20,748 nucleotides of DNA from a virus: the IMG/VR virus record IMGVR_UViG_3300017528_000122, positions 1-20,748 of that record; one strand, 5' to 3'. Position numbers and translations under genes: made by a program. Within the stretch, counting starts at the first letter, position 1, and every line of letters begins with the position of its first letter. Under the pieces are notes generated by a model. The model did no database searches. It was not told where the DNA came from and saw only the letters and a program-made list of their open reading frames with translations. Positions 1 through 17,676 of the stretch are shown here, piece by piece.

Positions 1-1983
1 GCTTCTCAGGGCCTGGGCCAGGCGGCGAGTAAAGGCACCGACCATAAGGACAAGGAGGCGTGGCAGGAAGGCCAGGAGACCGCACGCAACTGGGAGAACT
101 ATGCCAAGGAATCCGACGCCGCGATCAACTGCTTCATGTGCATCATGGCCGAGTCCAACTGGACCATGTACGCCAACAACGCCGTACCGACCAGCCTGAA
201 TTTCCCGCACGAGGGACTGAGCACCGACGGCACCTCGGTGGGCCTGTATCAGCAGACCGAGGGGAACAATTGGGGCAGCGTCAAGCAGCGGATGAACGTG
301 CGTGAGTCCACCGAGATGTTCCTGACGAGACTCAAGGCACACTCCGACTGGCGGAACATGGATCGCGCCGTTGCTGTTCAGGCCGTACAGGGTTCGGCGT
401 TTTCCGATGGGTCCAACTATAAGAAGTGGGAGCAGGAGGCGATCACCGAGGTTCGTCAACTCCGGCAGAATCAGACTCCCAACACCCCCGCTTCGGCCAC
501 CACCGACCCCACCAAGGTCACTCTCCCCGGCGGCGAAGGCACCAACAGCATTCCTGTTCCTCCCGCCGCAGCCTCCACCGTCACCAACGCGGTTGCCGGA
601 GCGGCCACCGGCAGTCCGGCAGCGGCCGAGGCAGCCACTGGAGCCAAGCCCCGGTTCGATACCCAAGGCGCGATCAATTTCGCCCGTGCGCAGATCGGCA
701 AGCCCTATGTGTGGGGTGGTACGGGCCCGGACGGCTACGACTGCTCGGGGCTGTGCATGATGGCCTATCGGTCCATTGAGCTTGAAATACCCCGAGTCAC
801 TCAACCTATGCTTGCTGGCTTGCAACGAATCACAGCGGCTCAGGCTAAGCCCGGCGACTTGATGTTTCCCAACAATGTCGAGCACGTTGTGATGATCAGC
901 GACGTCCCCGGCATGATCATCGAGGCCCAGCAGACCGGGGTACCGATCCACGAAGTCCCGTATTCGGCAGCAGGTATCGACCCCTCCTCGGTCCCAATCG
1001 CCCATGTCCCAGGTGCTGAATGGGGTGGAGCCGATCCGTCGGCTCCGTTCAATGCCTTTCCCACTAGTCCAGGTAATCCACCGGGCACGGTGACCAGCGG
1101 TCCTGATGGCACCGCTGCCCAGACCTCGGCCAAGGAGCCGATTGCGCGAAACTTGTTCACTTACATGTTCATTGCGCCTCCCGGCAGTGCCATCTCGAAC
1201 CTCTTCGGCGGCCAGCCCGGCGAGGAGGAGAAGGCGTTCATGAACGATCAGTCCATGATGCCGACCGTAATCTCCATGGCCACAGCGGGTTTGCGCAAAT
1301 TCGCCAGTGCTCCCAACGGTGACTTCATGGCCTACTACCCCGATTATTTCGGGATGGATGGCAAACAGGCGGTGCTCAAGCTCGAAGACATCGAGATGAA
1401 GAACGTCCAGATCGATCTCAACGACGACGCGCTGTGCACTCATGCCTACGTCGCGGGATCCCAGGCCCTGACGGCCGGAACAATGGGTACCTGGGGCTGG
1501 ATCATGAGCAAGGGCTTCGCCACCGTCGAGAACGAATGGCTGTTCCGCCGGATGACGCTGGGAGCCCCAAACGTCCCTGGGGAGGTGATGCAGAACGGCA
1601 AGGCGATCATGAAGAAGTTCGGTGTGCGTCCGATGGTCAAGGAGATGTCCATGTTGCGCACCGGGCCGATGGAGTTCCTGGCCGCCGTGCAGCTTTTCAT
1701 GGAGAACTGGGCCCAGCAGTACTCCACCAACATCGACATCTGCTTCATGCCGGAACTGATGCCCGGTAACCGTATTGAGCTGGTCGGTCACGGCCTGCAG
1801 GTCTACGTCTCCCAGGTGACACACACCTGCGACTGGGAGAATGGCTTCTCCACCCAGGTCACCATCTGCGCTCCGTCCACCACCGGCCTGGGCCGCATGG
1901 TCAGCAGCCTGCAGAGCACCGCCAGCCAGGACAAGAACGCCAACAACGACATCGCCAACAACTCGTCGGCCTGGTTGTATTGA
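1..1983 (+). CDS. Baseplate hub protein with lysozyme-like and NlpC/P60 hydrolase domains (5' partial)
   Basis: The reading frame is open from base 1, so the true start lies upstream; 660 residues are visible. Three parts can be seen. Residues about 40-150 form a lysozyme/transglycosylase-like domain, with a candidate catalytic Glu in ESNW (codon 151-153), then SVGLYQQ, NNWGS and AVQAVQGSAF, the pattern of actinobacterial phage tail lysozymes. A Pro/Ala/Thr-rich linker follows. Residues about 220-325 form an NlpC/P60 peptidase: YVWGG, catalytic Cys in DCSGL (codon 742-744) and His in EHVVMI (codon 883-885); the third residue may be the Glu or Gln in IIEAQQTG. From residue about 382 on is a gp27-like hub region with GDFMAYYPDYFG, DDALCTHAYV and MPGNRIELVGHG. 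It most likely caps the tail tube and degrades peptidoglycan during entry, combining the jobs of T4 gp27 and gp5. The enzyme domains are clear; the hub role is inferred from family resemblance and neighbours. Confidence 0.8.
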   Translation, partial: ASQGLGQAASKGTDHKDKEAWQEGQETARNWENYAKESDAAINCFMCIMAESNWTMYANNAVPTSLNFPHEGLSTDGTSVGLYQQTEGNNWGSVKQRMNVRESTEMFLTRLKAHSDWRNMDRAVAVQAVQGSAFSDGSNYKKWEQEAITEVRQLRQNQTPNTPASATTDPTKVTLPGGEGTNSIPVPPAAASTVTNAVAGAATGSPAAAEAATGAKPRFDTQGAINFARAQIGKPYVWGGTGPDGYDCSGLCMMAYRSIELEIPRVTQPMLAGLQRITAAQAKPGDLMFPNNVEHVVMISDVPGMIIEAQQTGVPIHEVPYSAAGIDPSSVPIAHVPGAEWGGADPSAPFNAFPTSPGNPPGTVTSGPDGTAAQTSAKEPIARNLFTYMFIAPPGSAISNLFGGQPGEEEKAFMNDQSMMPTVISMATAGLRKFASAPNGDFMAYYPDYFGMDGKQAVLKLEDIEMKNVQIDLNDDALCTHAYVAGSQALTAGTMGTWGWIMSKGFATVENEWLFRRMTLGAPNVPGEVMQNGKAIMKKFGVRPMVKEMSMLRTGPMEFLAAVQLFMENWAQQYSTNIDICFMPELMPGNRIELVGHGLQVYVSQVTHTCDWENGFSTQVTICAPSTTGLGRMVSSLQSTASQDKNANNDIANNSSAWLY

Positions 1984-4900
1984 TGGCCGGATTCGCACCC
2001 TACAGCACGACTCAGACCACCTCTGAGCCGGTGGCAATCGTCTCGGTCGACATCAACGCCCGAATGGCTAAGGGGCTCACCAGGCTTCGCACCATTCTGA
2101 ACATCAACTGCATGTACCCCGTCGGTGGCATGTACGTCATGCCCGCCGAGGGTGACCAGTGGTATGTCGATCGTCTCGATAACGCCTATTGGAAGCTGAC
2201 GGCGCGAATTCCGTTCAACGACAACAACACTCTGCTCGAACCTGTGCAGGGGCAGACCGTCATCGGTGGCACCGGGCCCGTCGAGCTGAACGGGTCACAT
2301 GTCAACGTCCACGGCGATGCCAATATCAATGGCGCGTTGTCTGTCGGCGACGTGACGCTCAAAGACATCGACGGGAAGCTGCAGCAGAGCAGTGACGGCG
2401 GGCAGACCTTCACTGAGATCGCGGGCAAGGCCGACATCGAAGACATCACCGGCCTGACCGAGATCCTCGACAACAAGATCGACAAGCCCCTCATCCCGAT
2501 CACGCCGGGCACCCACACCAAGATCACCTACGACGAGAACGGTCTGATCATCGCCGGGGAGGATGCCGCTCCCACCGACATCACCGGCCTGGTGCCGATC
2601 CTGGATGCTAAGTCTCCGATCGTTCACGACCACACCATGACCGAGGTCACCGGGCTGGACACTGCATTGGCCGGAAAGGCTGCTGTAGACCACACACACA
2701 CCGCAGACGGCGCATCCCTAGACCCTGACCTGGTCGACATCGGTGCGCTCGTTCCGGCCGATCTGGACTTCATCCAGCGCATCTCCGGGCACTGGTCCAA
2801 TGTCCCGCCGAGTGCCGTCAAGGGCGGGCTGGATCTGTCCTTTCTCGACATTGGCGGCATCCTGAGTGGTGGGCAGATTCCCGGTCTGGACGCCTCCAAG
2901 ATCATTAGCGGCCTCTTCGGCACCGGCTTGATCCCTGGCCTCGATGCGTCCAAGATCATCAGCGGCAGCTTTCTGACGTCGCTGATCCCCGGTCTCGACG
3001 CGGGCAAGATCACCTCGGGCATCTTCGGAGCAGGTCTGATTCCCAGCCTGGATGCCTCGAAGATCGTCTCGGGCATCCTGGGCCTGGCTCAGATTCCCGG
3101 CCTCGACGCGCTGCACATCCCCACCCTCGATGCCTCCAAGATCGGCACCGGCCAGTTTCTGACGTCGTTGATTCCCGGCCTGGACGCCAGCAAGATCATC
3201 ACCGGCCTCTTCGGTCTTGCCCAGATACCCGGTCTGCCCGCCTCACAGATCACCAGCGGTCAGTTCCCGCAGAGCATGGTGAACATCACCAATATCGCGG
3301 CGGGCATCGTCAATGGTGTCTTTACTGCGGGCCAGATCCCCAACCTGGACGCCACCAAGATCACCACGGGACTCCTTGACCTACTTCGGATTCCGGGTCT
3401 TGACCTCAGCCACATCCCCAGTCTGCCTGCTTCCCAGATCACCTCGGGTGCATTCCTGTCCACCTTGATCCCTGGCCTGGACGCCAGCAAGATCATCAGC
3501 GGCGTGTTCCCCCAGTCGATGATCACCGGACTGGCAGGCGATCTCGCCAAGTACCTGCCCACCAGTATCTTCAACGCCAGCGCTACTGCTGGGACGAACT
3601 TGGTCATCGACCCCGGTTTTGAGGATGTCACCATCGGGCGCAACCAGTGGTGGGCAGCGGGCGTCGGTAATGGATACACCACTGAGCAGACGCACGGCGG
3701 CACGCACAGTATCAAGCTCAGAGAGGGTCCAGACGGCTGGGATGGGTTCGATTTACTCTCTATTCCGGCCCCTGGCTCCCCAGATCAGCTTCCCCCACAA
3801 GATATATCCATCAAGGTGACGCCAGGTCAGAAGTATTATTTTGAGATCTGGGTTCTTCCCGACGGATCAGTCGGAACGATCGATTTTGGAGTTGCGTTTC
3901 GCAAAAGCTCAGATCCCTCTTCGTATTACGCAGAAACGGTGGGCGTAACCGGCGTCGAGTGGGTCGCAGGCACGCCTTCGCCACCAGCGTATGTCTGGAC
4001 GAAGCTCAGCGGATACAACACTGTGCCAGCAGGTTATGACCTGATGGAACCGTATTTCGAAATGACTGACGACGCACCAGGTTGGGTTGTCTACGTCGAT
4101 GACGCTGTTGTCCGTGAGGAGACTGCCAGCCAGAACATCATCAACCAGTTGTTCGGTGGCACAGACATTCTCGATTTGATCCTGCCCGACAGCATCCCCG
4201 GTCTGGACGCTACCAAGATCATCAGCGGTACGTTCCCTCAGTCGATGCTCGACATCCTCGACATTCCGGCAGGTCTGGTCTCCGGCATCCTGGGCGGGAC
4301 GCAGATCCCGCTGCTCGACGCCTCCAAGATCGGTTCCGGCACCCTCTTGTCGAGTCTGATCCCCGTCCTCGACGCGGCCACCAAGATCACCGGCATCCTG
4401 GGCCTGGGTCAGATTCCGGCACTGGATGCCTCCAAGATCACCACTGGCATCTTCGCTGATGCGTTCGTGCCTGGTCTGTCAAATCGCTTGCTCACCAACC
4501 TTTTTAACCAGAAGACCAAGACCGGTAGCAACCTTGTCATCGGCAGTGACTTCGAGGACACCACAATCCCTCGCGAAGCCAGTTCCGGCATCGGTTCGCC
4601 GTACAGCTTCAACACCCTCGGCTATACCACCGAACAGGCGCACAGTGGAACACATTCATGGAGGTTGACCGCTGCAGGTGGGTATGAGAGCGTCTGGTTT
4701 TCGCCTTATATCGGGCAGCCAGGCACCTATGGTAGCGGAACTCACGAACCTGCTGCTGGGATCAAAGTCCAACCGGGACAGAAGTATTACCTAGAAGTGT
4801 GGGTGTACCCCAAGGCGACTAACACCGCTGCTGCGGGAATTTTCACGGTGGCGCATCTGGTCGACTCCACGGGCGTCAACCCCGTCACATATCCAGGATT

Positions 4901-7835
4901 CTGGGGAGACACTCAACCCCCGAATGGAGCATGGGCAAAACTTGCTGGCTACCTTACGATTCCAGCCGGATACGACACGATCTACCCTGCTTTCAGTACC
5001 AGTCCCTCAACCCCCGCAGGGAACGTCTACTACATAGACGATGTGGTTCTGCGTGAGGAGACTGCCAGCCAGAACATCATCAATCAACTGTTCGGCAGTT
5101 CGTCAGTACTGCCGAGCATTCTACCCGGTGTTATTCCGGGGCTGGATGCCACCAAGATCACCAGCGGTATCTTCAACCTGCTTCAGATCCCCGGCCTCGA
5201 CGCTTCCCGTATTCCCCTGCTCGATGCAAGCAAGATCACCACGGGTCTTCTCGGTCTGGCCCAGATCCCGGCGCTGGATCTGACCAAGATCCCCAATCTT
5301 CCTGCCTCTCAGATCACTTCGGGACAGTTCCTCACTGGTTTGATTCCCGGTCTCGACGTCAGCAAGATAATCAGCGGGGTCTTCCCGATTCCCCGCATCC
5401 CCGCGTTGGATGCCACCCAGATCACATCGGGCACCTTCCCGCAGAACATGGTCGCGAACCTGCCTGCCAATCTGTCCAACATCTTCACCACGATCACCTC
5501 GCCGGTCGCCTCGAACCTGCTGCAGAACGTGCCGGTGTCGGCCATCGGTCAGTTCAACCCCGAGCTGTTGACCAACCCCAACTACGACACGCTGGGATCG
5601 GTGTCCGGTGGGTCGACTAGCTGGACTTGGGATCCCGCCGTTAGCCATACCGCAGGCGCTACCGGGTCGGCCAGGTTCACCGCCAACGGCACTACCGGAC
5701 AACTGCTTTCGGACCCGCCGATTCCGGTGTCCCCCAACCAGGTGCTCACCATCTCGCACTGGCTGCAGTGGTCTGGTGTTGCCGCTACCCCTGGTGTTGC
5801 CTTTCGGCTCAGCGTGGCTGCTTATCTGGGCATTGGGATTTCCAATACCGTTGACCTTCAGACCGTCTCCACCCCCGCCGCCTCCTCGGGCTGGACTCAG
5901 CTCTCCGGTCAGTACACCGTCCCGGCAACGGGCGTGGACAACATTCGGCTGCAACTCACCGTCACCTCGCTGGTCACGGCGGGCAGCATCTGGTGGGACG
6001 ACGGTTCGGTCAAAAAGACCCAATTGCTCAACGAGGCATGGACAGCGGGCCTGCCGGGTGATCTCAACAACCTGCTCTCCGGGATCAACGCGCGGGCACT
6101 GATCACCGACCTCACCGGGCTGCAGAGCAATCTGGGCCTGGGCGATTCGTCTTTGACCGCAATCACCAATCGGCTCGCCGGTCTCGGCTCTGGCGGCGGC
6201 TTCGACGCCAGCAAGCTCGGAAACATTAACAACATTCCCCAGTTGCTCGCCGCTAGCGTGGGGGGCATCGGTGGTATCGGGAACATCGGGGACTCGATGC
6301 AGCAGACCTGGGACACCGTGGCAGGAGCCTCTGCGGGCGCGGGCAGCCTGACAGGAATCCTCAACCGGTTGACCAATCTCAACACCAGCGGTCTCTTCCA
6401 CTCCGGTTTTCTGTCCAACATCACCAGCATTCCGCTGTTGCCACAGGCGAAGATCCCGGCTCTGGATGGCAGCATCATCCAGTTCGGCAAGGTGCCCATC
6501 GGCCAGATTCCCATCGGAAACGCTCCTACCGAACTGAACCGACTCACCCTCCCCGACGTAGGCCAGACTCTGGACCAGATCACCAATGCCTGGGTCGGCC
6601 AGGTCTTTAACCCCTTCACCGGCACCGACCCAGACATGGCCCGTCAGTCGATGGACAGCTTCTACTCGTCCTTCCTGAGCCTCACGCAGAAGGTGCAGGA
6701 TATCCGCTCCACCCAGACCGCCACCGACGTCTCCGGTACTACCGTCACGGTCAACTTCGGCGATCTGCCGGATGGGCCACTGCCGTCGAGCTTCACCACC
6801 ACCTACGTCGGAACTGGAACATCGACGATCGGCATCACCAACGGCGCGGCGGGCTGGCGAACCCAGGTCAACAATGGTAACCGGACGGGCATAATCGTCT
6901 ACAACATCGCCCCGACCAGCACCGACTTCCAGATCGTGCGCGGCACGCTGTCCGGCGCTCCACCCGGTGACAACGGCGGCAGCAAGCCCATGATTGCCGC
7001 CATCGGGCGGGTCGACAACCCCGCCAATCCGCGCAACTACGTCTGGGCGCGCGGCTACAACGACGGCTTCCTGACGTACAAAGGGGATGTCGGCTGCACG
7101 GTCAACGGCGTGGATACCACCTGGTTCAGCGGCATTCCCCTGACGTGGTCGATGGACATCAACATCATCTTCGGCGTCGGCGGCAATCCTCGTCGCTACC
7201 AAGTCTTTTCAGGTACCGAGTTGGTCAAGGACTTCCTGGAGCCCGGCACTGCCAGCAGGCTTGGCGCTGGCTTCCGGTACTGGGGTTGTCGAACCGATCT
7301 TAAGACCGATTCCGGCAAGGTCATCGCACCGCCGTCCATCGTCGGCACGTCGGTGAGCGACAACCAGCCGCCCGCTGTGACGGGGTGTACCTTCCGCGCC
7401 TACCGGGCCAGCACTGGCGGTGTCACGTTCTCGGGGACCAGCGTGGTGCCCACCACTCCTCCGTATTTTGATACCCCGCAATACAGGTCCGCCGACATGG
7501 GTTGGGACGGTGCCAATCTCACCATCGGCACCGAGGGCACCTATCTGGTCAACATCCGCTACAAGACTCCGAACATCCCTGGCGGTGCCAAGGCCGACGT
7601 GGCGCTGGCCCAGACGGGCATCGGCCTGGCACGGCGGATGGGCAGCGGGTTTGCGGACTCGTCGTTCGGGGCCAACTCGGGCAGCGCCATGTTCGGCTCG
7701 GCGCTGGTCTACTGCAAGGTGAATGACGTTCTGACGCCTGGCTATATCGTCTCGGCCAATGTCTCGTCAACGGGTGAGACAACCGGTACCGAATCATATT
7801 TCGAAGTCGCCCTAGTGAACAGGAGCATGGCATGA
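1983..7835 (+). CDS. Giant modular tail fibre / baseplate spike protein, receptor-binding (1950 aa)
   Basis: ATG at 1983 overlaps the previous stop by one base (TGATG), which implies coupled translation; a TTG at 1980 would add only one residue and there is no clear ribosome site. The N-terminus (about 1-110) has the MYVMPAEGDQWYVDR pattern seen at the start of actinophage minor tail proteins, then VNVHGDANINGALSVG and H-D-H/DHTHT tail-fibre-like repeats (about 110-290). Three shaft blocks of 18-residue IPGLDASKIISG-type repeats (about 299-513, 738-832, 1051-1160) alternate with three CBM4_9-like beta-sandwich modules (about 538-724, 847-1038, 1190-1349). After a Gly/Ile-rich stretch come a ConA/LamG-like domain (about 1590-1786) and a C-terminal C1q/TNF-like jelly-roll (about 1799-1950; MGWDGANLTIG, EGTYLVNIRY, ESYFEVALVN). 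It probably binds cell-surface glycans. The domain names are recognised by eye. It may be a central spike or a side fibre. Confidence 0.8.
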   Translation: MAGFAPYSTTQTTSEPVAIVSVDINARMAKGLTRLRTILNINCMYPVGGMYVMPAEGDQWYVDRLDNAYWKLTARIPFNDNNTLLEPVQGQTVIGGTGPVELNGSHVNVHGDANINGALSVGDVTLKDIDGKLQQSSDGGQTFTEIAGKADIEDITGLTEILDNKIDKPLIPITPGTHTKITYDENGLIIAGEDAAPTDITGLVPILDAKSPIVHDHTMTEVTGLDTALAGKAAVDHTHTADGASLDPDLVDIGALVPADLDFIQRISGHWSNVPPSAVKGGLDLSFLDIGGILSGGQIPGLDASKIISGLFGTGLIPGLDASKIISGSFLTSLIPGLDAGKITSGIFGAGLIPSLDASKIVSGILGLAQIPGLDALHIPTLDASKIGTGQFLTSLIPGLDASKIITGLFGLAQIPGLPASQITSGQFPQSMVNITNIAAGIVNGVFTAGQIPNLDATKITTGLLDLLRIPGLDLSHIPSLPASQITSGAFLSTLIPGLDASKIISGVFPQSMITGLAGDLAKYLPTSIFNASATAGTNLVIDPGFEDVTIGRNQWWAAGVGNGYTTEQTHGGTHSIKLREGPDGWDGFDLLSIPAPGSPDQLPPQDISIKVTPGQKYYFEIWVLPDGSVGTIDFGVAFRKSSDPSSYYAETVGVTGVEWVAGTPSPPAYVWTKLSGYNTVPAGYDLMEPYFEMTDDAPGWVVYVDDAVVREETASQNIINQLFGGTDILDLILPDSIPGLDATKIISGTFPQSMLDILDIPAGLVSGILGGTQIPLLDASKIGSGTLLSSLIPVLDAATKITGILGLGQIPALDASKITTGIFADAFVPGLSNRLLTNLFNQKTKTGSNLVIGSDFEDTTIPREASSGIGSPYSFNTLGYTTEQAHSGTHSWRLTAAGGYESVWFSPYIGQPGTYGSGTHEPAAGIKVQPGQKYYLEVWVYPKATNTAAAGIFTVAHLVDSTGVNPVTYPGFWGDTQPPNGAWAKLAGYLTIPAGYDTIYPAFSTSPSTPAGNVYYIDDVVLREETASQNIINQLFGSSSVLPSILPGVIPGLDATKITSGIFNLLQIPGLDASRIPLLDASKITTGLLGLAQIPALDLTKIPNLPASQITSGQFLTGLIPGLDVSKIISGVFPIPRIPALDATQITSGTFPQNMVANLPANLSNIFTTITSPVASNLLQNVPVSAIGQFNPELLTNPNYDTLGSVSGGSTSWTWDPAVSHTAGATGSARFTANGTTGQLLSDPPIPVSPNQVLTISHWLQWSGVAATPGVAFRLSVAAYLGIGISNTVDLQTVSTPAASSGWTQLSGQYTVPATGVDNIRLQLTVTSLVTAGSIWWDDGSVKKTQLLNEAWTAGLPGDLNNLLSGINARALITDLTGLQSNLGLGDSSLTAITNRLAGLGSGGGFDASKLGNINNIPQLLAASVGGIGGIGNIGDSMQQTWDTVAGASAGAGSLTGILNRLTNLNTSGLFHSGFLSNITSIPLLPQAKIPALDGSIIQFGKVPIGQIPIGNAPTELNRLTLPDVGQTLDQITNAWVGQVFNPFTGTDPDMARQSMDSFYSSFLSLTQKVQDIRSTQTATDVSGTTVTVNFGDLPDGPLPSSFTTTYVGTGTSTIGITNGAAGWRTQVNNGNRTGIIVYNIAPTSTDFQIVRGTLSGAPPGDNGGSKPMIAAIGRVDNPANPRNYVWARGYNDGFLTYKGDVGCTVNGVDTTWFSGIPLTWSMDINIIFGVGGNPRRYQVFSGTELVKDFLEPGTASRLGAGFRYWGCRTDLKTDSGKVIAPPSIVGTSVSDNQPPAVTGCTFRAYRASTGGVTFSGTSVVPTTPPYFDTPQYRSADMGWDGANLTIGTEGTYLVNIRYKTPNIPGGAKADVALAQTGIGLARRMGSGFADSSFGANSGSAMFGSALVYCKVNDVLTPGYIVSANVSSTGETTGTESYFEVALVNRSMA
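2877..3521 (+). repeat. 54-bp coding repeats, shaft block 1 (18-residue IPGLDASKI units)
   Basis: About a dozen consecutive degenerate units of the form IPGLDASKIxSGxFxxxL encode a repeating shaft. The standard unit is 18 residues (54 bp); several have short insertions such as LDALHIPTLDASKI. Bases drift at third positions while the amino-acid pattern is kept, so protein structure, not DNA, is under selection. Such regular hydrophobic spacing suggests a fibrous beta-strand or beta-helix shaft, probably trimeric (inference). Confidence 0.85.
3579..4157 (+). other. CBM4_9-like adhesive module, copy 1, inside the giant fibre gene
   Basis: Encodes a unit starting GTNLVIDPGFED, with GTHSIKLREG, KVTPGQKYYFEIWV, TVPAGYD and ending VYVDDAVVREETASQNIIN. 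This is the layout of carbohydrate-binding module family 4/9 jelly-rolls, in which a final aromatic/Asp-Asp strand closes the sandwich. Its base composition is lower in GC than the flanking repeats (27 of 60 bases G or C in 3781-3840). It is followed directly by shaft block 2. Confidence 0.65.
4194..4479 (+). repeat. 54-bp coding repeats, shaft block 2
   Basis: Five or six units of the same IPGLDATKIISG family as block 1, lying between the first and second CBM4_9-like modules. One unit has an extra residue (LDAATKITG). The block reads as a spacer that separates adhesive modules along the shaft. Confidence 0.8.
4521..5097 (+). other. CBM4_9-like adhesive module, copy 2, inside the giant fibre gene
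   Basis: Encodes GSNLVIGSDFED, YTTEQAHSGTHSWRL, KVQPGQKYYLEVWV, TIPAGYD and VYYIDDVVLREETASQNIIN, parallel to copy 1 throughout. The last part shares 32 identical bases with copy 1 (4113-4144 versus 5052-5083). The two are therefore related by duplication of a module; the middle parts have diverged strongly, which suggests selection for different ligands. Confidence 0.65.
5133..5463 (+). repeat. 54-bp coding repeats, shaft block 3
   Basis: Six or so units of the IPGLDATKITSG family following CBM module 2, ending in IPALDATQITSGTFPQNM. A last vestigial unit, IPALDGSIIQFG, appears further on near 6451-6490, followed by IGQIPIGNAP. Confidence 0.8.
5554..6030 (+). other. Divergent CBM4_9-like module, copy 3, inside the giant fibre gene
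   Basis: Encodes FNPELLTNPNYDTLG at its start, then ATGSARFTANG, IPVSPNQVLTISHWLQW, TQLSGQYTVPATGVDNIRLQL and IWWDDGSVKKTQL at its end. The order of motifs matches modules 1 and 2, but the sequence is far more divergent and it lacks the shared 32-base tail, so it is an older or independent acquisition. Confidence 0.55.
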
Positions 7836-8135: not shown

Positions 8136-10421
8136 ATGGCATGGGTCGTCACTCCGCCCACTCCGGCCCAGAAGAGTTCGACGGGCTGGGTGACTTCCCC
8201 CACCACCACACCGAGCACTCCTCAGACGGGCTGGGTCGGTAGCGGCCAGGTCACGATCACGGGTAGACCGTCGGGCAGCGGTCAGCTCGCTGTTACCACC
8301 ACATTGGCCCGTCCATTCGTCACCGCGTTGCTGGCCGGTAACGGCACGCTCTCTGCCACCTTGCTCAAACGCGAGTACCGCGTCGTTGCGTTGGCTGGGG
8401 ATGGCACGTTCACTGCTGGGCGCACCACGGTGGGGTATTTGGCTCCTCAATTCAACGGTGACGGTGTCTTCGGCGGCGGCGTGGTGTCGACTCACCAGGA
8501 GGCCCAGTTCAGCGGTGCAGGACTTCTGGAGGGCTGGTCAGACGGCCTACACGCCAACGTCGGTATCGGCTACGGCATCAATGTGAACTTCACGGGGGAC
8601 GGCAGCCTGGTGCCCTATTTCGCCGAGATCCATTTGCAGTTCGCGGATTTCGCGAGCGCGGGCACACTGTCGAGCACCTTCACGCCCAACCTGATGGCCA
8701 ATCTGGCGGGCAGTGGTGTGCTCAGCGCCCAGGCGTTTGCGCTCTATGTGCGTACGGCTGCCCTGTTGGCCTCGGGCACGCTGTCGGCCACCGACTTCGC
8801 GAATTACCTGCGCTCCATTGGGTTTACCGGTGCGGGTGCGCTCACCACCCTGTTCCAGGCGCTACTCACTCCCGCCGGGGGAGGCACTGGGACGGTCAGC
8901 GCACTGGTCAGTCAGAAGTACTCTCTCGCCGCCGCACTATCCGGTAACGGGGCGCTGTCGGCTTCGGCAGTACAGCAGTCTGTGTCAGTCCCGCGCGCTG
9001 CTGCCTTCAGTGGCCCCGGCACCCTCGCCGCGCAAGCCATCCAGCGATACACCACTTCCCCTGCCACCGTTGCCCAACTGGTAGGCGTCGTCTACTCGCA
9101 GAGCAGCCTGTGGGCCAGTAGTGGTGTTACCGCTGCTAACTACGCCGGAATGAACGACAACAGCGCCAGCACAGGTGGCACCGCCACCGACATCACTCCA
9201 ACGCCAACCCATATCACCGCCGATATGGGTGTTTCGCAATTCATCCATCACATCACGGTCGGCTACGACTACCTGAACACTATCGGCGCGGGGGACTGGG
9301 GCGTTGCTTTCACCGAAGGGCTGACCGTTCAAGGATCCAACGATGGTTCGGCTTTTACCGACATCACCACCACCCCAACCTATGCCAGCAGCGGTTCATC
9401 CAATGGCCTGGTGAATATCGCCATCAACCAAACCTGGCGTTACATCCGGCTGAGGCATCCCACCGACTACTACATGGCCTGCACCGAACTGGAAGTCTAC
9501 GGTTCGGTACTGCTGGGTGGCGGCGGCACCCTGTCGGCCACTCCAGTGGCGAGTTACGCAAGTAGTGCGGCACTCTCCGGTAACGGCACGCTGACAGCGA
9601 CCGCCACCGGGACAGTCACGTTTGCGCCGTTTAGCGAGACGAATACCCCGCGCACCAACCAGCCCATTCCGACTGGTTTGCCGACGGGGGTCTGGGTGAC
9701 GCTGATCGGCGCGGGCGGCGGTGGTGGCCAGGGCGCACTGGGCAACCTGTCCAATCGTGCTGGTGGCGGCGGGGCGGGTGGAGCCGCCAAGGTGGGTCGT
9801 AGTTTCGTGCCATTGGCCAACCTCGGCTCGACGTACTCCGTTGCCCGCCCGCTGGGTGCTGCGCAGGTGACCGCCGGGGCAGCGGCGACGTTCTCCAGCG
9901 GCTCAGTGGTGCTGACCGCGAACGGTGGCGGGGCGGGCGGTAATGCCAGCGCCAACACTGCAGGCACCGGAGGGGCTGGCGGCACCGCAACGCAATCGGG
10001 CATCACCGGCATGACGCTCATCAACGGCACGGCAGGGGGAAACGGTGGTGTGTCCAACACTACGGGCTTGACGGCTGTCAACAACACGGCGGGCGCAGCA
10101 CCCGGTGGCGGCGGTGGTGGCGGCAGGAACAGCCTTGGCACTCCGCAGAGCAGTGGGGCAGGCGGCAACTCGGTGAACGCATCAGGCGGCGCTGGCTCTA
10201 CGTCCTCCAACATTGCTGGCTCTCCTGGCGGTAACGCTGCCGCTGGCCAGCCCGGCGGCGGCGGTGGTGGTGGGCCTGGCTCCAGTAACGCCACCACCAA
10301 TAGCTCCCTCGGCGGTAACGGCGGCACCTACGGCGCAGGCGGCGGTGGCAGCGGCTCCGGTCAGGTCATTGCTGCCGGTGGCGCGGGCGCTGATTCCTAC
10401 ACCCTTCTGGAGTGGGTCTGA
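8136..10421 (+). CDS. Tail fibre/adhesin protein with AGxGTLSAT repeats, discoidin-like domain and glycine-rich C-terminus (761 aa)
   Basis: ATG lies one base after the previous stop. After a Thr/Pro-rich start (about 1-45; STGWVTS and QTGWVGS are related), residues about 60-305 carry a dozen short degenerate repeats around LAGNGTLSAT, spaced about 20-25 residues. Residues about 310-458 resemble an F5/8 type C (discoidin) domain: YSQSSLWASSGVTAANY, ITADMGVSQFIHHITV, LTVQGSNDGSAFTDI, WRYIRLRH and CTELEVYGS. Two more repeats follow (LGGGGTLSAT, LSGNGTLTAT). Residues about 520-761 form a glycine-rich domain with VWVTLIGAGGGGG at its start, runs of seven Gly and LLEWV at the very end, as in many phage tail adhesins. 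It probably binds the cell envelope. It shares its repeat with the next gene, so the two are probably partners or paralogues. Confidence 0.78.
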   Translation: MAWVVTPPTPAQKSSTGWVTSPTTTPSTPQTGWVGSGQVTITGRPSGSGQLAVTTTLARPFVTALLAGNGTLSATLLKREYRVVALAGDGTFTAGRTTVGYLAPQFNGDGVFGGGVVSTHQEAQFSGAGLLEGWSDGLHANVGIGYGINVNFTGDGSLVPYFAEIHLQFADFASAGTLSSTFTPNLMANLAGSGVLSAQAFALYVRTAALLASGTLSATDFANYLRSIGFTGAGALTTLFQALLTPAGGGTGTVSALVSQKYSLAAALSGNGALSASAVQQSVSVPRAAAFSGPGTLAAQAIQRYTTSPATVAQLVGVVYSQSSLWASSGVTAANYAGMNDNSASTGGTATDITPTPTHITADMGVSQFIHHITVGYDYLNTIGAGDWGVAFTEGLTVQGSNDGSAFTDITTTPTYASSGSSNGLVNIAINQTWRYIRLRHPTDYYMACTELEVYGSVLLGGGGTLSATPVASYASSAALSGNGTLTATATGTVTFAPFSETNTPRTNQPIPTGLPTGVWVTLIGAGGGGGQGALGNLSNRAGGGGAGGAAKVGRSFVPLANLGSTYSVARPLGAAQVTAGAAATFSSGSVVLTANGGGAGGNASANTAGTGGAGGTATQSGITGMTLINGTAGGNGGVSNTTGLTAVNNTAGAAPGGGGGGGRNSLGTPQSSGAGGNSVNASGGAGSTSSNIAGSPGGNAAAGQPGGGGGGGPGSSNATTNSSLGGNGGTYGAGGGGSGSGQVIAAGGAGADSYTLLEWV
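9068..9510 (+). other. F5/8 type C (discoidin)-like domain, inside the fibre gene
   Basis: The block has the usual discoidin order: a Trp/Ser-containing start, the strand ITADMG (equivalent of the v-v-DLG strand), a GSNDGSAFT turn, then WRYIRLRHP and ELEVYG at the end. Discoidin domains commonly bind sugars or lipids. It splits the AGxGTLSAT repeat array, with repeats on both sides. Confidence 0.65.
9706..10418 (+). repeat. Glycine-rich low-complexity coding region
   Basis: Dense GGN codons encode Gly/Ala/Asn/Ser-rich sequence, including two runs of seven Gly (APGGGGGGGR near 10098-10130 and QPGGGGGGGP near 10249-10276). Known phage glycine-rich adhesins use polyglycine-II bundles with loops carrying receptor specificity; that structure is inferred here. 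Such tracts can vary by slippage. Confidence 0.75.
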
Positions 10422-13120
10422 TGGTTAGCCCTACCGATCTCACCGGGCTAACCGTTTGGCTTGATGCCTCACAGTTGACCCAGGCCGACGGTGTGTCCAT
10501 CGGGACACAATGGTCTGATCTGTCCGGTGGTGGGCATCACGGGGCGGTGGTCGGTTCCCCGGCCCCGGTGGTGAAGACCAACGCGCTCAACGGGAAACGA
10601 GTAGTCCGGTTTGCGGCGCACGAGGGCCGGATACGCGGCAATGGGATGTGCACCGCCGGGAGCTACGACCTGACCGTCCTCTACATCGGGCGGATGTGGG
10701 GCACCAACCTCGGGCGCATCTTCACCAACACCTACCCGCCGTACAACTTTCTGGTCGGAACCTATTCCGGCAGTGCCTATCCCGGTATGTACGACAACGG
10801 TTGGGTCGGCCCCACACCGGCATCCCTGTCTGGTCCCTCCCAGTGGATGCTCTATGGGGGTGTCTGCACCAGCTCGCTGCAGACGCTCTATGTGAATGGC
10901 GCGACGGCGGGGACGGGAGCCAGTAGCAACGGTCATGACAGTCTGTGGAACCTCTCCGGTTACGACGCGACCGCCGACACCGAAACCTGCGACTGCGAGA
11001 TCGCCGAACTGGTCGTCTACAACCGGGCGCTGACCACTACCGAACGACAGGCGATCGAGAACTATCTCAGCGCGAAATGGTTTCCACCCGTCCTGGACGA
11101 CTTCAACCGAGCCAACTCCAGCATTACTGCGGGCACGGATTGGATCAACCGCAATAACACGATGGGCATCAGTGACAATGCCGCCTACGGTGTCGTGTCG
11201 GGTGCGTGGAATGTGGCGTCCTACAACACCCCGGCGACTGCCAACGACATGGAGGCGTCCATCCGGTTGGGTGTGCCCGCTGGCGACCTGGGATGGGACT
11301 TCTGTTATGTCGGCATCGGCTTCAACGCTGCCGGTGAGGGCGTGTTCGTTGACACCAACGCCATCGGGGGCGGTTTCTCCATCTACACCCAAACCGATTG
11401 GGCGCTGGGCGGATTGGTCAATCAGGCGAATCTGGGCGCTACTTGGGTCATCGGCGACATCCTCACGATCAAGCGCGCGGGCAACATCTACACGGTCTAC
11501 AAGAACGGCGTAAACACCGGCCTGAATTGGACCGACAGCGGTGGTCTGGTTCCCATCGACAGCAGCCACCGCACCGCCGCGATAGGCGCATACGAGAACG
11601 GGACGGGTTCCCGCCGCATCGACTCGTTCACCGCGAGCCCGGTAGGGGGAGCGATACCGACCCCGGTATCGGCAACTCTGACCGGTGCAGGCGCACTGAG
11701 CGCAACAACGTTTGCGAGCTATCCCCGTGCCGCAGCCTTGACGGGCGCAGGCACGTTGTCGGCGACGACGGTCAAGGTGGCCCCGGTATCGGCTGCGCTG
11801 GCCGGTGCGGGCACGCTGTCGGCGACGACGGTCAAGGTGGCTCTAGTCTCTGCTGCGCTGGCTGGTGCGGGTGCATTCTCGGGCAGCGCGATGATGTTCA
11901 TCGCCTTCGGCGGGATACCACCCGCCACAGGCAGTCTGAGCGCGATCATCGCCATCGGGACCGGCGTCTACCCCGATGTCACGGGGGTGGGCACGTTGTC
12001 GGCGATGGTCTATGGGATTGTGCCCAAGACCGCGAGTTTGTCCGGCAGCGGGGCGCTGAGCGCCAGGATGGACCGGGCGCTGCCCGTCGCCTGGTCCGGC
12101 GGCGGTGTGTTGGTTACGGCTACCCAACAGATCTATTCCAAACAACCGGCCCTCTCGGGTGGCGGCACCCTGGCCGATCCCGCCTTCTACGGCACCGGAT
12201 TCAAGTCGGTGGACGCCAACGGGACCGGCACCGTCTCGGCGACCTGGATGGCCCGCCCGTTCGTCTATCCGGTGTTGGCCTCGGCGGGCACGATGGCCGC
12301 CACGCTGGGCATGCAGTACCTGCGCAATGGTCTTCTGGCGGGTGACGGCGCGCTCGCCGAAGCACACAAGCAGATCTATGCCCCGGCAGCCACATTGAGC
12401 GGCGATGGCGTTTTGGTGGCCACTGACACGCAGCTCTACGCACTGGCTCCCGGCCTCAGCGGTGACGGCACGCTGTCGGCCACCGTCGATGTGCCTGCAT
12501 TGGTAGTCATCAGTACCTTGGCGGTCACTGCGGCAACGATGTCTTTGCCGCCTCATGCTCCTGGCGATCTTCTTCTGGTACTCGGTGTTGGTTCCGCCGG
12601 AACCACCATGAGTGCCGCAGCGGCGGGAGGCACGGTGCCGACGTGGAACACCATCGACACCAGTGGCGCAAATCCAGGCACTCTCCTTGCCTGGGCGGTG
12701 GCGACCGCAAGCAACCACACCACTGGTTCCTGGACTAGCGCCACCCCTGCATCGATGTGTGCCATCGTGCTCCGCAATCAGGCACCGGGATCACCCATCG
12801 GTGGTCATGCAAAGACATCGGGCCAGAGCGTCACCCCCGTCGTTGCGCCCGCAATCACAATGGCCAAAACCAACGGCACGTCCATGCTGCTGCACTTCAT
12901 CGTCTCCCGGTGTTCAAGTGGCAATGCCGCCTGGCCTGTTGCACCCGCCGGATACATACGACAACTCACTCACTCTCCTGTCCCGGCCTATCCCACCTCA
13001 AAGCTCGCCATAAACAGCAAGAACGACACCACATCTGACGGCGCGTGTTCGCAACCCACGGGTGATTCTGCTGCTCCTATCGGGGCACAGGGGTTCACCG
13101 TCGAGATCCTGAGGCGGTGA
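10421..13120 (+). CDS. Tail fibre/adhesin protein with two ConA/LamG-like domains and AGxGTLSAT repeats (899 aa)
   Basis: ATG at 10421 overlaps the previous stop (TGATG) and has GGAG at 10409-10412 with eight bases between; the GTG at 10412 would fall on that ribosome site, so the ATG is preferred. Residues about 1-222 are a LamG/ConA-like lectin domain (LTVWLDAS, WSDLSGGGHH, QTLYVNGATAG, CEIAELVVYNRALT, ending ENYLSAKW). Residues about 222-406 are a second one (LDDFNRANSSITAG, GFNAAGEGVFVD, LTIKRAGNIYTVYKNG). Residues about 413-693 are AGxGTLSATTV-type repeats like those in the preceding gene. Residues about 694-899 are a C-terminal domain with HAPGDLLLVLGVGSAG, LLAWAVATASNHTTG and MCAIVLRNQAPG, a pattern seen at the ends of other phage fibres. 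Probably a glycan-binding fibre. The domain fold is judged by eye. Confidence 0.78.
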   Translation: MVSPTDLTGLTVWLDASQLTQADGVSIGTQWSDLSGGGHHGAVVGSPAPVVKTNALNGKRVVRFAAHEGRIRGNGMCTAGSYDLTVLYIGRMWGTNLGRIFTNTYPPYNFLVGTYSGSAYPGMYDNGWVGPTPASLSGPSQWMLYGGVCTSSLQTLYVNGATAGTGASSNGHDSLWNLSGYDATADTETCDCEIAELVVYNRALTTTERQAIENYLSAKWFPPVLDDFNRANSSITAGTDWINRNNTMGISDNAAYGVVSGAWNVASYNTPATANDMEASIRLGVPAGDLGWDFCYVGIGFNAAGEGVFVDTNAIGGGFSIYTQTDWALGGLVNQANLGATWVIGDILTIKRAGNIYTVYKNGVNTGLNWTDSGGLVPIDSSHRTAAIGAYENGTGSRRIDSFTASPVGGAIPTPVSATLTGAGALSATTFASYPRAAALTGAGTLSATTVKVAPVSAALAGAGTLSATTVKVALVSAALAGAGAFSGSAMMFIAFGGIPPATGSLSAIIAIGTGVYPDVTGVGTLSAMVYGIVPKTASLSGSGALSARMDRALPVAWSGGGVLVTATQQIYSKQPALSGGGTLADPAFYGTGFKSVDANGTGTVSATWMARPFVYPVLASAGTMAATLGMQYLRNGLLAGDGALAEAHKQIYAPAATLSGDGVLVATDTQLYALAPGLSGDGTLSATVDVPALVVISTLAVTAATMSLPPHAPGDLLLVLGVGSAGTTMSAAAAGGTVPTWNTIDTSGANPGTLLAWAVATASNHTTGSWTSATPASMCAIVLRNQAPGSPIGGHAKTSGQSVTPVVAPAITMAKTNGTSMLLHFIVSRCSSGNAAWPVAPAGYIRQLTHSPVPAYPTSKLAINSKNDTTSDGACSQPTGDSAAPIGAQGFTVEILRR
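11738..11880 (+). repeat. Near-perfect 60-bp tandem repeat in the second adhesin gene
   Basis: Units at 11751-11810 and 11811-11870 differ at 7 of 60 positions by my count and encode AGAGTLSATTVKVAPVSAAL-type 20-residue units. Parts of the unit extend on both sides. This is the youngest duplication in the repeat array; other units are far more diverged. Confidence 0.85.
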
Positions 13121-14161: not shown

Positions 14162-14574
14162 GCTATTCGTTCCGCATCGCCGATGGCGACTTGGTAGGGA
14201 TCGGCAACCAGCTCGATCTTGTCTTCGGTGTGGACAAGCTCAAGCAGGACATCGACTTGTGGATGCGTGAGCGATATGGCGGCGATCGGTTCCATCTCGC
14301 CATGGGCTCGATTCTGCAGGACTTCATCGGCGACATCGTTTCCGGCTCCACCAGGGCCGAGGTGCACGCCGAAGTGCTGCGGGTGCTGCAGAACTATCAG
14401 GCGGTCCAGTTGCGCCGTCTGAAGGAAAGCCCACAGATGTTGAGCACCAGCGAGTTACTGGTCTCCGTCGACGACATCGCGACCAATGTCAGTTTCGACA
14501 CCGTGATGGTGGCGATCAAGCTGCGTAACGGATCCGACCAAGCCACCACCATTCGGATCAACACCAGTCTCTAG
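14158..14574 (+). CDS. gp25/GPW-like baseplate wedge protein (138 aa)
   Basis: The only upstream start in frame is GTG 14158, overlapping the previous stop (GTGA). Residues 1-138 fit the small T4 gp25 / P2 gpW family of inner baseplate proteins. The DRFHLAMGSILQDFIGD stretch (about residues 41-57) is the equivalent of the family's conserved region, followed by a helix with RAEVHAEVLRVLQNYQ and a beta C-terminus (LLVSVDDIA, FDTVMVAIKLRNG). In contractile tails this protein nucleates the sheath and links wedges to the hub. Its position just before the J-like gene is the canonical gene order. Length is typical (family about 110-150). The family call rests on synteny as much as on sequence. Confidence 0.7.
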   Translation: MSYSFRIADGDLVGIGNQLDLVFGVDKLKQDIDLWMRERYGGDRFHLAMGSILQDFIGDIVSGSTRAEVHAEVLRVLQNYQAVQLRRLKESPQMLSTSELLVSVDDIATNVSFDTVMVAIKLRNGSDQATTIRINTSL

Positions 14575-14583
14575 GAGGTCGAA

Positions 14584-16326
14584 GTGACCAAAACGCCTGA
14601 CACCATCAGTCAGGAGATGCGGGCCAAGTTGTCCATCACCGCACCGGGCTTCTCCATGGAGCTGGGCACGCCCGAGCGCAAGATGCTCGACGCGGTGGCC
14701 GAGTCCATCAGCGAGTGCTATATCGACCAGTACCTACTGGGCTCGCTGCTGGACGTCGAGGCCAAGGCCGGGCTGGAGCTGGAGCAGTTCGTCGGCATCT
14801 TCGGCTACGGCCGTCTGCAGGGCAAGAAGTCTCAAGGCGTTGTGCGGGTGGAGCTTACGACCGCCAACGCTCAGGACATCCCGGTCAACCTGGGCACCCA
14901 GTTCTATACCCGTCAGGGCCTGCCGGGCACTTCTAACCCGCTGTACTTCTCGGCCAAGCAGGCGTCGGTGATCCCGGCGGGTACCTATGTCACCGACGTG
15001 CCGGTGGAGTGCACCATCGTCGGCACCGCAGGCAACGTGCCGCCGGACTCCATCGTCTACCTGGGCGAGATCATCGGCGCGTCCTCGGTGACCAACCTGA
15101 CCTCGATGACCGGCGGGGTGGACCCGGAGTCCGACGACGAGCTGCGTCAGCGGTTCAAGGACACCTTCATGCGCAACGTGGCCGGGACCGAGGACTGGTA
15201 CCTGGGGCTGGCTTACCAGAACGCCAGCATCTCAAAGGCGCTGTGCATCGGGCCCATTCGCAAGTACGCCACCCAGATCAACGTCCCCAGCGCCACCCTG
15301 ACGCTGCCCGTCAGCGCCGACGTCAAGTACGCCTGGCCGGGCGGGGAGAGCGTCTTCAAGAACCTGGGACAGGCCGACGAAGCGTTCTACCGGCCGATCG
15401 ACGACTACGTCTTCGTCTCCGGCTCCAGCCCGCAGATCCAGCGGGTGGCCACCGGGGTGATGGTGGAGGGCGAGGTCATCGACGTCGAATTCGAGTACAC
15501 CACACGGTCTTCGCGCAACGATCCGCTCAACGGGATCTGCAACAAGGTCGACGTGTTCGTCAACGGGGCCAGCCCGTTGTCGGTTGTCGAGCGCACCATC
15601 GTGCCCGCCCAGACGCTGTCCACCAATCCGGCCGATCCGCTCTACATCGGCAACTTCGCCCGCGTCGGCACCGCTGGGACGCCCAGCGCCACCAATCGGT
15701 TCATGCGGCTGGGCAGCGTGCCGGTGCTGAGCTTTCCCTCCTCGGTTGTCGTCGGCGTCACCAATTTCCAGCAAGGCAACCACTATCACGTGCTGCGCGG
15801 CACCACGCTGGACGCTGGGTCGTTGCGCGAGGTGGCCGGGCTGGAGTGGCTTCCGGCGGGCCCGGCGGTCAACACCCCGCTCACTCTGACCTACGTGTAC
15901 AACCGGGTGCCCGAGATACTGCAGGCCGTCGTCAAGAAGGGCAAACAGCTCACCACCGACGTGCTGGTGCACCAGGCCAGCTACGCCTACCTGAAGATCT
16001 TCCTGTCCATCGAGTACGACCGGGGCTTTGTGGTCTCCCAGGTGGTCAATGCCATCCAGGACCGGATGCGCGGCTACTTCGCCGGGATGCCATATGGCTC
16101 CTGGCTGGAGGTCAGCGATCTGACATTGTCCGTGCACCAGGTGATCGGCGTCGACAACGTCGCGCTGACCACCGCCGCCGAAGACCCCAACAACTACGGC
16201 ATCTGGGTCTTCGCCGACAGCTCTGACACCGTTCCACTGTCAGTCGAGACCGAGGACTTCAAGCTGGTCGACAACCAGCTCCCGGTCTTCGTCGAGGCCG
16301 TCTGCTTGAGAAAGCCGAACCGCTAA
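14584..16326 (+). CDS. Baseplate J-like wedge protein (gp6-like, 580 aa)
   Basis: GTG 14584 is preceded by a strong AGGAGG at 14573-14578, five bases away. The protein shows the hallmarks of the baseplate J / T4 gp6 family: an N-terminal helical part with GTPERKMLDAVAESIS, then AGTYVTDVPVECTIVGTAGNVPP, and the signature region VTNLTSMTGGVDPESDDELRQRF with FMRNVAGTEDWYLG after it (about residues 175-210). The C-terminal half is beta-rich, with a likely dimer or ring-contact part near VVKKGKQLTTDVLVHQ and IEYDRGFVVSQVVNAIQDRM. It forms the wedge ring of contractile tails, between hub and fibres, and rearranges when the sheath fires. The stop overlaps the next start by one base. Confidence 0.88.
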   Translation: MTKTPDTISQEMRAKLSITAPGFSMELGTPERKMLDAVAESISECYIDQYLLGSLLDVEAKAGLELEQFVGIFGYGRLQGKKSQGVVRVELTTANAQDIPVNLGTQFYTRQGLPGTSNPLYFSAKQASVIPAGTYVTDVPVECTIVGTAGNVPPDSIVYLGEIIGASSVTNLTSMTGGVDPESDDELRQRFKDTFMRNVAGTEDWYLGLAYQNASISKALCIGPIRKYATQINVPSATLTLPVSADVKYAWPGGESVFKNLGQADEAFYRPIDDYVFVSGSSPQIQRVATGVMVEGEVIDVEFEYTTRSSRNDPLNGICNKVDVFVNGASPLSVVERTIVPAQTLSTNPADPLYIGNFARVGTAGTPSATNRFMRLGSVPVLSFPSSVVVGVTNFQQGNHYHVLRGTTLDAGSLREVAGLEWLPAGPAVNTPLTLTYVYNRVPEILQAVVKKGKQLTTDVLVHQASYAYLKIFLSIEYDRGFVVSQVVNAIQDRMRGYFAGMPYGSWLEVSDLTLSVHQVIGVDNVALTTAAEDPNNYGIWVFADSSDTVPLSVETEDFKLVDNQLPVFVEAVCLRKPNR

Positions 16327-17675
16327 TGCCCAGTCAGAGTCCATTCCCAATGATGCCGTCGAAGTCGACGGAGCTTCGACTTGGCCATTTCGACGAGCAG
16401 GTCTATGCAGGCGATTCGTCCACCATCCTTTACAAGTTCATGGACGCCATGTGCGGGGATAGCGGTGCCGGGACACTGAAGAACGAGATATTTCTTCAAA
16501 GGCTAAGCGGCGCAATGGATTCCATATATGGAAGTGATCTTGATTACATATTCGGGAACATGCATTTCCTGAGCCGCAGCCCCGATGAGTCCTATCCCTA
16601 CAACACCGCCACCGAGATGCTCACCTCAGATCAATGGGATGAGGTGGTCATCAAGGATGCCTGGTATCGCGCCCGGATCACCGAGTTCTTCCAGGCATGC
16701 ACGGCGGGCGGTACCCATAACGGCATCCGGCTCTGCGTGCACGCGGCCGTGTCGGTGGATTGCGAGATCTTCGAAGTATGGCGCTATATGGACAATTTCG
16801 GCCTTACAGCGCATCTGGGCCGAGCCCCGGTCAACACCCGTCAGGAGGTGGTCATCCGGCCGCACAAGGAGATCCTGGAACCCAAGGAACGTCGTCTGCT
16901 ACGTGACATGCTGGACAAGGTCACCCCGCAGGACACCGTGATGACGATCGACACCCGAGGGCTGTCCGTGTCGGCTCCGGTTAGTGTACGGGCCCGCGCA
17001 GCCGACTCCACGTATTACCAGGTGGAGAAGATCGTCACTGCCACACCGGTTCTCGAATCTCTGCCCGCCCCGGAGCTGCTGGCCATCGACCTGGATCCGA
17101 CCGAAAAGTGGCTATTCTCAAGGTCTCCCGAGCTGGCCCCGTACTCGATGTTTAACATAAGCAGCGAATATGGATATTATTATCTGATCGGCGGTGGACC
17201 GCGCAGCCCCATCGACGCAGTCACCTACGGCACCCTGCAGTCGGACGGCTCGGTGCGAGCGGAGAACCCGTTCCAGATGTTCGAGACCACCGGACAGTAC
17301 ACCGACTGGATCGAGTACGAGATCGCCGACAGCCCGGATAACTATCCCGGCGGCAAGTTCGGCATCACCCCGACGACCGCGCCCGCGCTGACCGCCGATA
17401 AGGCCCCCTACCAGTTCCCCTACGCCAGCCAGCAGGACTACATCAACGAGAAGAAGGCCGACGTGCTGTCCGTGGGCGGCCTGGCCGACGACGTGCGCTA
17501 CAAGCTGCCGATCGAGAAGCCGTCTCAGGTCAAGCGCACCTTCACCGCTGATCTGGCCATCGCCTACTCGGCTCCGGCCCGTGACTCTACCGTTTCGGCG
17601 TCCTTGACGTGTCGACGACCGCGCCAGAACGTCCACCTGGGTGGGCTCAATCCGGCATCCTTCGTAAGGAGCTGA
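16326..17675 (+). CDS. Baseplate wedge protein in the tail protein I position (449 aa)
   Basis: ATG 16326 uses the last base of the previous stop (TAATG). The position directly after gp25 and J is the canonical place of the tail protein I / T4 gp7-like wedge protein, which bridges the wedge and the fibre-bearing parts. The first 160 residues are helical (LYKFMDAMCGDSGAGTLK, LQRLSGAMDSIYGSDLDYIFG, DAWYRARITEFFQACTAGG), consistent with that family. The rest is more variable: VVIRPHKEILEPKERRLLRDML, a beta section with LSVSAPVSVRARA, and IEKPSQVKRTFTADLAI near the end. The identification is by gene order plus rough fold, so it remains tentative. AT-rich spots occur at about 16480-16560 and 17149-17190. 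Confidence 0.55.
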   Translation: MPSQSPFPMMPSKSTELRLGHFDEQVYAGDSSTILYKFMDAMCGDSGAGTLKNEIFLQRLSGAMDSIYGSDLDYIFGNMHFLSRSPDESYPYNTATEMLTSDQWDEVVIKDAWYRARITEFFQACTAGGTHNGIRLCVHAAVSVDCEIFEVWRYMDNFGLTAHLGRAPVNTRQEVVIRPHKEILEPKERRLLRDMLDKVTPQDTVMTIDTRGLSVSAPVSVRARAADSTYYQVEKIVTATPVLESLPAPELLAIDLDPTEKWLFSRSPELAPYSMFNISSEYGYYYLIGGGPRSPIDAVTYGTLQSDGSVRAENPFQMFETTGQYTDWIEYEIADSPDNYPGGKFGITPTTAPALTADKAPYQFPYASQQDYINEKKADVLSVGGLADDVRYKLPIEKPSQVKRTFTADLAIAYSAPARDSTVSASLTCRRPRQNVHLGGLNPASFVRS

Positions 17676-17676
17676 G

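Follow-up and report, generated by a model that had tools for sequence, protein, structure and literature searches.

A candidate tail fibre of a Myrna-like virus combining probable pyocin-type repeat rods with CBM4_9-like modules

Introduction

The fibres of R-type pyocins have been solved at 1.9-2.3 A (6CL5 and 6CL6). In the account of Buth et al. 2018 (PMC6116203), their Rod domain (residues 328-356) consists of four helix-plus-turn motifs, i.e., repeats of a helix of 3-4 residues and a sharp turn, which form a trimeric interdigitated rod, and their Shaft, composed of such motifs too, spans about 93 A with 70 residues. The same account describes this repeat as so short that it is recognizable only at the structure level, and calls the stem of the phi29 head fibre topologically similar to it, a likeness by description (PMC6116203). 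Within the open-licence literature, the term "helix-plus-turn" together with tail fibre was found only in the pyocin paper.

Several phage proteins offer further points of comparison. Mycobacteriophage Douge has a central fibre, gp20 (PDB 8ZDO), with a stem, a tip and two CBM-like domains; for the latter, binding to M. smegmatis and to LAM/AM or alpha-glucan fragments is reported (PMC13033339). In mycobacteriophage BPs, gp22 is a predicted tail spike in which the substitutions A306V, L462R, A604E and G780R are reported to change receptor dependence or host range (PMC10465359).

Here, we describe a gene for a long candidate fibre in a complete IMG/VR virus record (IMGVR_UViG_3300017528_000122) of 20,748 bases, referred to as the window, in which arrays of an 18-residue repeat are interspersed with CBM4_9-like modules (hereafter beads). 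Part of this protein aligns to Douge gp20; unlike it, gp20 gives no match to the repeat profile and, with 878 aa, is less than half as long.

Results

Genomic setting and domain order of the fibre gene

The baseplate and tail genes of the window are nearest to those of large Mycobacterium myophages, Myrna matches the window at 14,173-20,095 with 73% identity, and the hosts of the virus would be mycobacteria or their relatives. The features of the fibre gene are as follows.

1983..7835, plus strand: fibre protein ORF, 1950 aa from the ATG at 1983 (1951 aa from the TTG at 1980)
2004..2438, plus strand: N-terminal anchor domain (phrog_2952, residues 9-153, E 1.5e-31)
2577..2705, plus strand: PF12789 "Phage tail repeat like" (residues 200-242, E 2.8e-7, above cut-off)
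2877..3521, plus strand: rod block 1, 12 listed units (phrog_7565, E 3.9e-37)
3597..4154, plus strand: bead A, CBM4_9-like, from NLVI (residue 540) to the exit linker REETASQNIINQLFG
4194..4466, plus strand: rod block 2, unit starts at residues 739, 776 and 812 plus a degenerate unit at 794 (phrog_7565)
4530..5093, plus strand: bead B, CBM4_9-like, a paralogue of bead A with 41% identity
5133..5450, plus strand: rod block 3, 7 listed units, two of them 8-aa half units (phrog_7565)
5502..6104, plus strand: bead C, a CBM4_9-like relative of the glycan-binding domain at the N terminus of Douge gp20 (PDB 8zdo)
6291..7820, plus strand: C-terminal tip region (phrog_746, residues 1438-1947; DUF7257, residues 1571-1797)

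The start of this ORF overlaps the stop of the upstream gene (TGATG). That gene (1-1983) codes for a structural protein of the tail that contains an NlpC/P60 domain (E 7.6e-17), judged from its domain content to be a probable peptidoglycan hydrolase in the tail, and its Myrna homologue is annotated as LysA. The anchor domain is shared by minor tail proteins of the Myrna gp133 type, which occur in large myophages. Like the window protein, Myrna gp133 and further members of phrog_2952 have this domain and are encoded between a LysA-like structural gene and genes for the baseplate; however, gp133 has 319 aa without any units, whereas the anchor in the window carries the whole fibre. In Myrna, the gap between the LysA-like and baseplate genes holds two small genes (319 and 203 aa), compared with about 12 kb in the window, starting with the fibre protein. 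At the other end of the protein, the tip region is homologous to a solved mycobacteriophage minor tail protein (9n6a, E 4.4e-37).

The assignment of the beads was examined at the level of the whole protein and of single modules. The complete ORF passes the Pfam CBM_4_9 (PF02018) cut-off in three stretches (E 4.1e-9, 37.4 bits). When scanned alone, bead A reaches 26.5 bits against a cut-off of 25.9, and beads B and C score 18.2 and 17.7 bits, below that cut-off. Bead C is a more distant relative of the paralogous beads A and B; together with the region that follows it, it aligns to Douge gp20 (residues 1175-1419 to 147-389, E 9.1e-25). Bead C may bind glycans, as its Douge homologue is reported to do (PMC13033339). 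We also observed a run of 32 identical bases in the exit linkers of both bead A and bead B (4113-4144 and 5052-5083); as these paralogues have otherwise diverged, the run points to a recent exchange or recombination event in the linker.

Number, spacing and age of the repeat units

The first-pass annotation had placed an IPGLDASKIxSG-type repeat at 2877-5463, and 22 IPxLDASKI-type units indeed lie there in three blocks, starting at residues 300-497 (12 units), 739-812 (3 units) and 1052-1140 (7 units); a degenerate single match at residue 1492, outside the blocks, was left out of this count. With a strict motif, [IVL]PxL[DP]xx[KQRH][IVL], 19 occurrences were counted in the 1951-residue reading; when this protein was shuffled 1000 times, the motif appeared 0.009 times per shuffle on average and never more than once. 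The separation of the blocks by CBM4_9-like modules was also borne out, with two modules between blocks and a third after block 3. The idea that the modules interrupt the shaft at regular places holds in part: 12 of the 19 within-block steps measure 18 residues, but the others measure 8 (four), 37 (two) and 36 (one, containing the degenerate unit at 794), and the blocks differ in length (~215, 91 and 106 residues). Besides its 18-aa units, block 1 contains one double unit of 37 aa and two half units of 8 aa. The 8-residue steps correspond to half units such as IPGLDALH, and they show that the 18-mer consists of an 8-residue part (IPGLDASK), which can be duplicated on its own, and a 10-residue part.

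Third-position drift with a preserved amino-acid pattern, another earlier observation, was recovered quantitatively. Where ten units have identical residues in common (495 comparisons), the codon is the same in 53%, while the codon use of the gene predicts 44%; the units are thus old, with nearly randomized silent sites.

Relationship of the repeat to the pyocin Rod

In agreement with the initial impression that the repeat has no named family, scans of block 1 against Pfam and NCBIfam gave no family at its curated cut-off. All three blocks are matched by phrog_7565, a family of minor tail proteins (E 3.9e-37, 3.9e-16 and 3.9e-12 for blocks 1, 2 and 3, respectively). In open-licence full texts, searches with the letters LDASKI and SKITSG returned nothing relevant among the matches listed.

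The suggestion that the fold might be undescribed was not supported: the repeat profile picks out the R1 and R2 pyocin fibres, whose structures are known, within their Rod domain, and a match to an already described shaft had been named beforehand as a result that would speak against it. With a 31-unit profile, the R1 (E 1e-7) and R2 (E 1.1e-5) fibres were the best two of 177,635 PDB sequences, the next being a creatine kinase at 0.58; these E values refer to whole chains, the independent E of the best single stretch being 0.001. A 77-column profile built from 28 rows gave E 2.8e-5 and 1.3e-4 for R1 and R2, and block 1 as a single sequence matched pyocin at E 0.078. The reversed repeat profile produced no match among the PDB sequences up to E 10. 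The pyocin match spans 20 residues, approximately one unit (334-353, inside Rod 328-356, numbered from the constructs stated in the paper, R2 323-691 and R1 323-701; PMC6116203), and a second stretch of R1 pyocin matched by the profile falls in the Shaft. On the basis of these sequence matches, the fold of the repeat is probably not new. The creatine kinase matches (LDASKIRSG, 0.58 and above) and a plant receptor kinase found by single-block phmmer (0.24) were taken as chance.

The likeness to the R1/R2 pyocin fibres extends beyond the Rod stretch IPGLDASKLVSGVLAEQRLP, which matches one repeat unit: in both systems, rods alternate with globular domains, the end is lectin-like and the fibre belongs to a contractile tail. 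The two differ in that roughly one unit can be recognized in the Rod of the solved pyocin fibres, plus a diverged copy in their Shaft, whereas the window has 22 sequence-periodic units in three blocks, and in that the pyocin beads are Knobs, whereas those of the window are CBM4_9-like.

Unit-wise length variation in cultured mycobacteriophages

Repeat-number variation, which had been proposed as something to look for in related phages, was found in gp22 of cluster G mycobacteriophages. This tail spike (BPs/Angel/Halo gp22, phrog_7565) has the same units as the window, including the 18 + 19 double unit QFPQxMxNITNIAAGIVxGxF. It differs from the window protein in having five unit starts (Angel) and a different anchor and tip, and no CBM4_9-type bead was seen by eye between the units of Angel gp22. 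A further difference is that these phages are siphophages.

Four Liefievirus gp22 genes were read (Angel, Paito, Plagueis and Guo1). Angel and Paito have an identical array. Plagueis gp22 is 100% identical to that of Angel outside one in-register gap of 165 nt, which removes 55 residues (an 18 + 37 step). Guo1 gp22 is 99.8% identical to Angel gp22, with a few substitutions, outside one in-register gap of 258 nt, equal to 86 residues (a 68 + 18 step). Collapse of the repeat during assembly is an unlikely source of these gaps, because the units involved differ at the DNA level (28/36 and 24/36 identical core bases). Angel and Plagueis gp22 thus form a clean natural pair differing by 55 shaft residues alone.

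Angel gp22, used as a stand-in for BPs, has the wild-type letters at positions 306, 462, 604 and 780, and all four lie outside its unit region (residues 70-228). Plagueis and Guo1, which lack 55 and 86 shaft residues, are still listed as M. smegmatis phages. Both the location of the substitutions and the natural indels fit a division of labor in which the rods would act as spacers and other domains as binders. The opposite assignment, with the repeat blocks as the receptor-binding surface and the CBM-like domains as spacers, could appeal to the units being the most numerous surface of the protein, and is very improbable in view of the reported host and receptor positions (PMC10465359) and the shortened shafts of Plagueis and Guo1.

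The same architecture in related contigs

A degenerate DNA pattern retrieved 80 viral loci (L020-L099), which were not deduplicated and of which several are pieces of the same contig. Among them, a step of 18 residues was seen 87 times, a step of 37 residues 25 times and every other step at most 5 times; as these two dominate, the periods 18 and 37 are properties of the family. In the 77-column alignment, 16 columns are invariant across the 28 rows, and the I, P, L, A, I and G positions are strongly conserved between contigs.

Beads lie between or after rod blocks in L097 (three), L058 and L059 (two each) and L022 (one). Their junctions are of similar length: from the last unit to the bead entry motif there are 34-43 residues (36 in 5 of 10 cases; 43 by hand count for bead A of the window), and from the bead exit motif to the next unit 26-29 residues (eight cases including bead A of the window). 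The L097 contig, a 143-kb relative, also has an anchor with 38% identity and a baseplate J protein with 53% identity to those of the window. It was the only positive among the nine records tested for the anchor and the seven tested for baseplate J, the other records being contigs of 21-97 kb, some perhaps fragments; consequently, the rod-and-bead kit seems to occur on different anchors.

The unit array is also found in viral contigs of several sizes, and its most regular form, with ten uninterrupted 18-residue steps, was seen in a 51-kb viral contig (L064, 425-1087). In L056, three units run straight into an ARGGTG motif, and a unit followed by RGGT occurs in 5 of 91 pattern-scan loci (not deduplicated). 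RGGT is a common tail-fibre motif. A search of the genome collection for the repeat gave a single locus, in the predatory bacterium Halobacteriovorax marinus (L017, 4416-10359), where a 1981-codon open frame contains six unit starts at exact 18-residue steps; the protein is not phage-gene-like in appearance. Two other candidates were dropped, one (L016) matching only through a PTR-like stretch and the other (L007) over 25 residues only.

Proposed organization of the fibre and alternative folds

The idea of a shaft carrying lectin-like beads gains support from the domain order, the same grammar in related contigs, the tail-protein families matched and the unit-wise length variation in cultured phages. 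We consider it likely that a large Myrna-like actinobacteriophage here encodes a long and probably trimeric tail fibre with pyocin-type rods, beads and a Douge-like tip, and that the feature forms the shaft of this fibre. In this organization, the N-terminal domain would plug the fibre into the baseplate, and three rods of tandem 18-residue units would follow, each unit probably forming a few helix-plus-turn motifs as in the Rod of R-type pyocins. Two CBM4_9-like beads would be held along the shaft, and a third bead and the Douge-like tip would complete the fibre. The rods may set distance and stiffness, the beads may touch glycans of the cell envelope through multivalent contacts of low affinity, and committed binding would fall to the tip. 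Shaft length would be altered by recombination between units, and beads would come and go as cassettes whose junctions hardly vary in length. Scaled from the pyocin Shaft, where 70 residues cover about 93 A, 18 residues would extend ~24 A, and the three blocks would measure ~29, 12 and 14 nm.

A different fold is suggested by AlphaFold2 (AF2). In the monomer model of four units (27 sequences; pLDDT 76, pTM 0.60), ASK helices are accompanied by one stacked SGxF strand per unit, resulting in a stacked solenoid with a weak leucine-rich-repeat resemblance at low to medium confidence. Accordingly, the units might stack within one chain as a beta-solenoid or a leucine-rich-repeat-like 18-residue coil, giving monomeric solenoids with a fold unlike that of pyocin. 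Many of the weak Foldseek matches of this model are leucine-rich or FNIP repeats, but none reached E <0.001 (the best being 0.8 in the viral library and 4.4 in PDB), the highest structural Z was 2.8, to a leucine-rich-repeat protein, and the five four-unit models range in pLDDT from 76 to 56. Moreover, AF2 is reported to turn near-perfect repeats into confident, unrealistic beta-solenoids (Pratt et al., PMC11795689); because of this documented bias and the monomeric nature of the model, the solenoid was given little weight. The 8-residue half units would also break the register of such a coil, and the sequence match is to a trimeric rod. We therefore regard a solenoid as unlikely. The model nevertheless counts, as a prediction, against the pyocin-like reading, and neither 6cl5 nor 6cl6 was among the Foldseek (PDB and viral library) and VIA-align matches listed for it. 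The short ASK helices in the regular units, on the other hand, agree with helix-plus-turn motifs, for which a helix of 3-4 residues is expected, although the model as a whole is a solenoid.

Still less probable is a reading in which the repeats merely tether the beads to each other as a flexible and largely disordered chain. The AF2 monomer of block 1 has a pLDDT of 51, as such a tether would predict, though from a shallow alignment of 7 rows and with ASK modelled as a 3-residue helix in the regular units, and long stretches of regular secondary structure are scarce in the sequence. However, the conserved columns described above, kept despite near-random silent sites, point to structural constraint, and the homologous pyocin stretch is part of the crystal structures at 1.9-2.3 A (PMC6116203).

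What is new in the preferred organization, i.e., a trimeric shaft of pyocin-type rods, is a multi-unit, sequence-readable rod of this type with lectin-like beads on a myophage baseplate anchor. The long arrays make the pyocin-type repeat visible in sequence, with a usable profile, and this bead-and-rod building kit is unusually easy to read. The arrays also tie the pyocin-type repeat to the fibres that decide the host range of therapeutic mycobacteriophages (BPs gp22, PMC10465359). Should the rods serve as rulers, the length of the shaft and the distances between beads would be traits open to measurement. More tentatively, IPxLDASKIxSGxF might be a sequence-readable ruler, that is, a helix-plus-turn code shared by mycobacterial phages, pyocin-like contractile tails and at least one predatory bacterium, with length tuned in ~2.4-nm steps by unit recombination and lectin bead cassettes placed at set distances. 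Were this true, fibre geometry would be calculable from sequence.

Repeats in the downstream ORFs

Two further ORFs of the window, at 8136-10421 and 10412-13120, contain a repeat of about 20 residues (AALxGxGTLSATxxxx), with 16 and 13 loose matches, respectively, which looks like a second, unnamed fibre repeat. A 60-base tandem repeat is located at 11750-11871. Residues 322-443 of the product of 8136-10421 weakly resemble F5/8 type C (discoidin), scoring below the Pfam cut-off, and this protein ends in a glycine-rich C-terminal tip (phrog_754).
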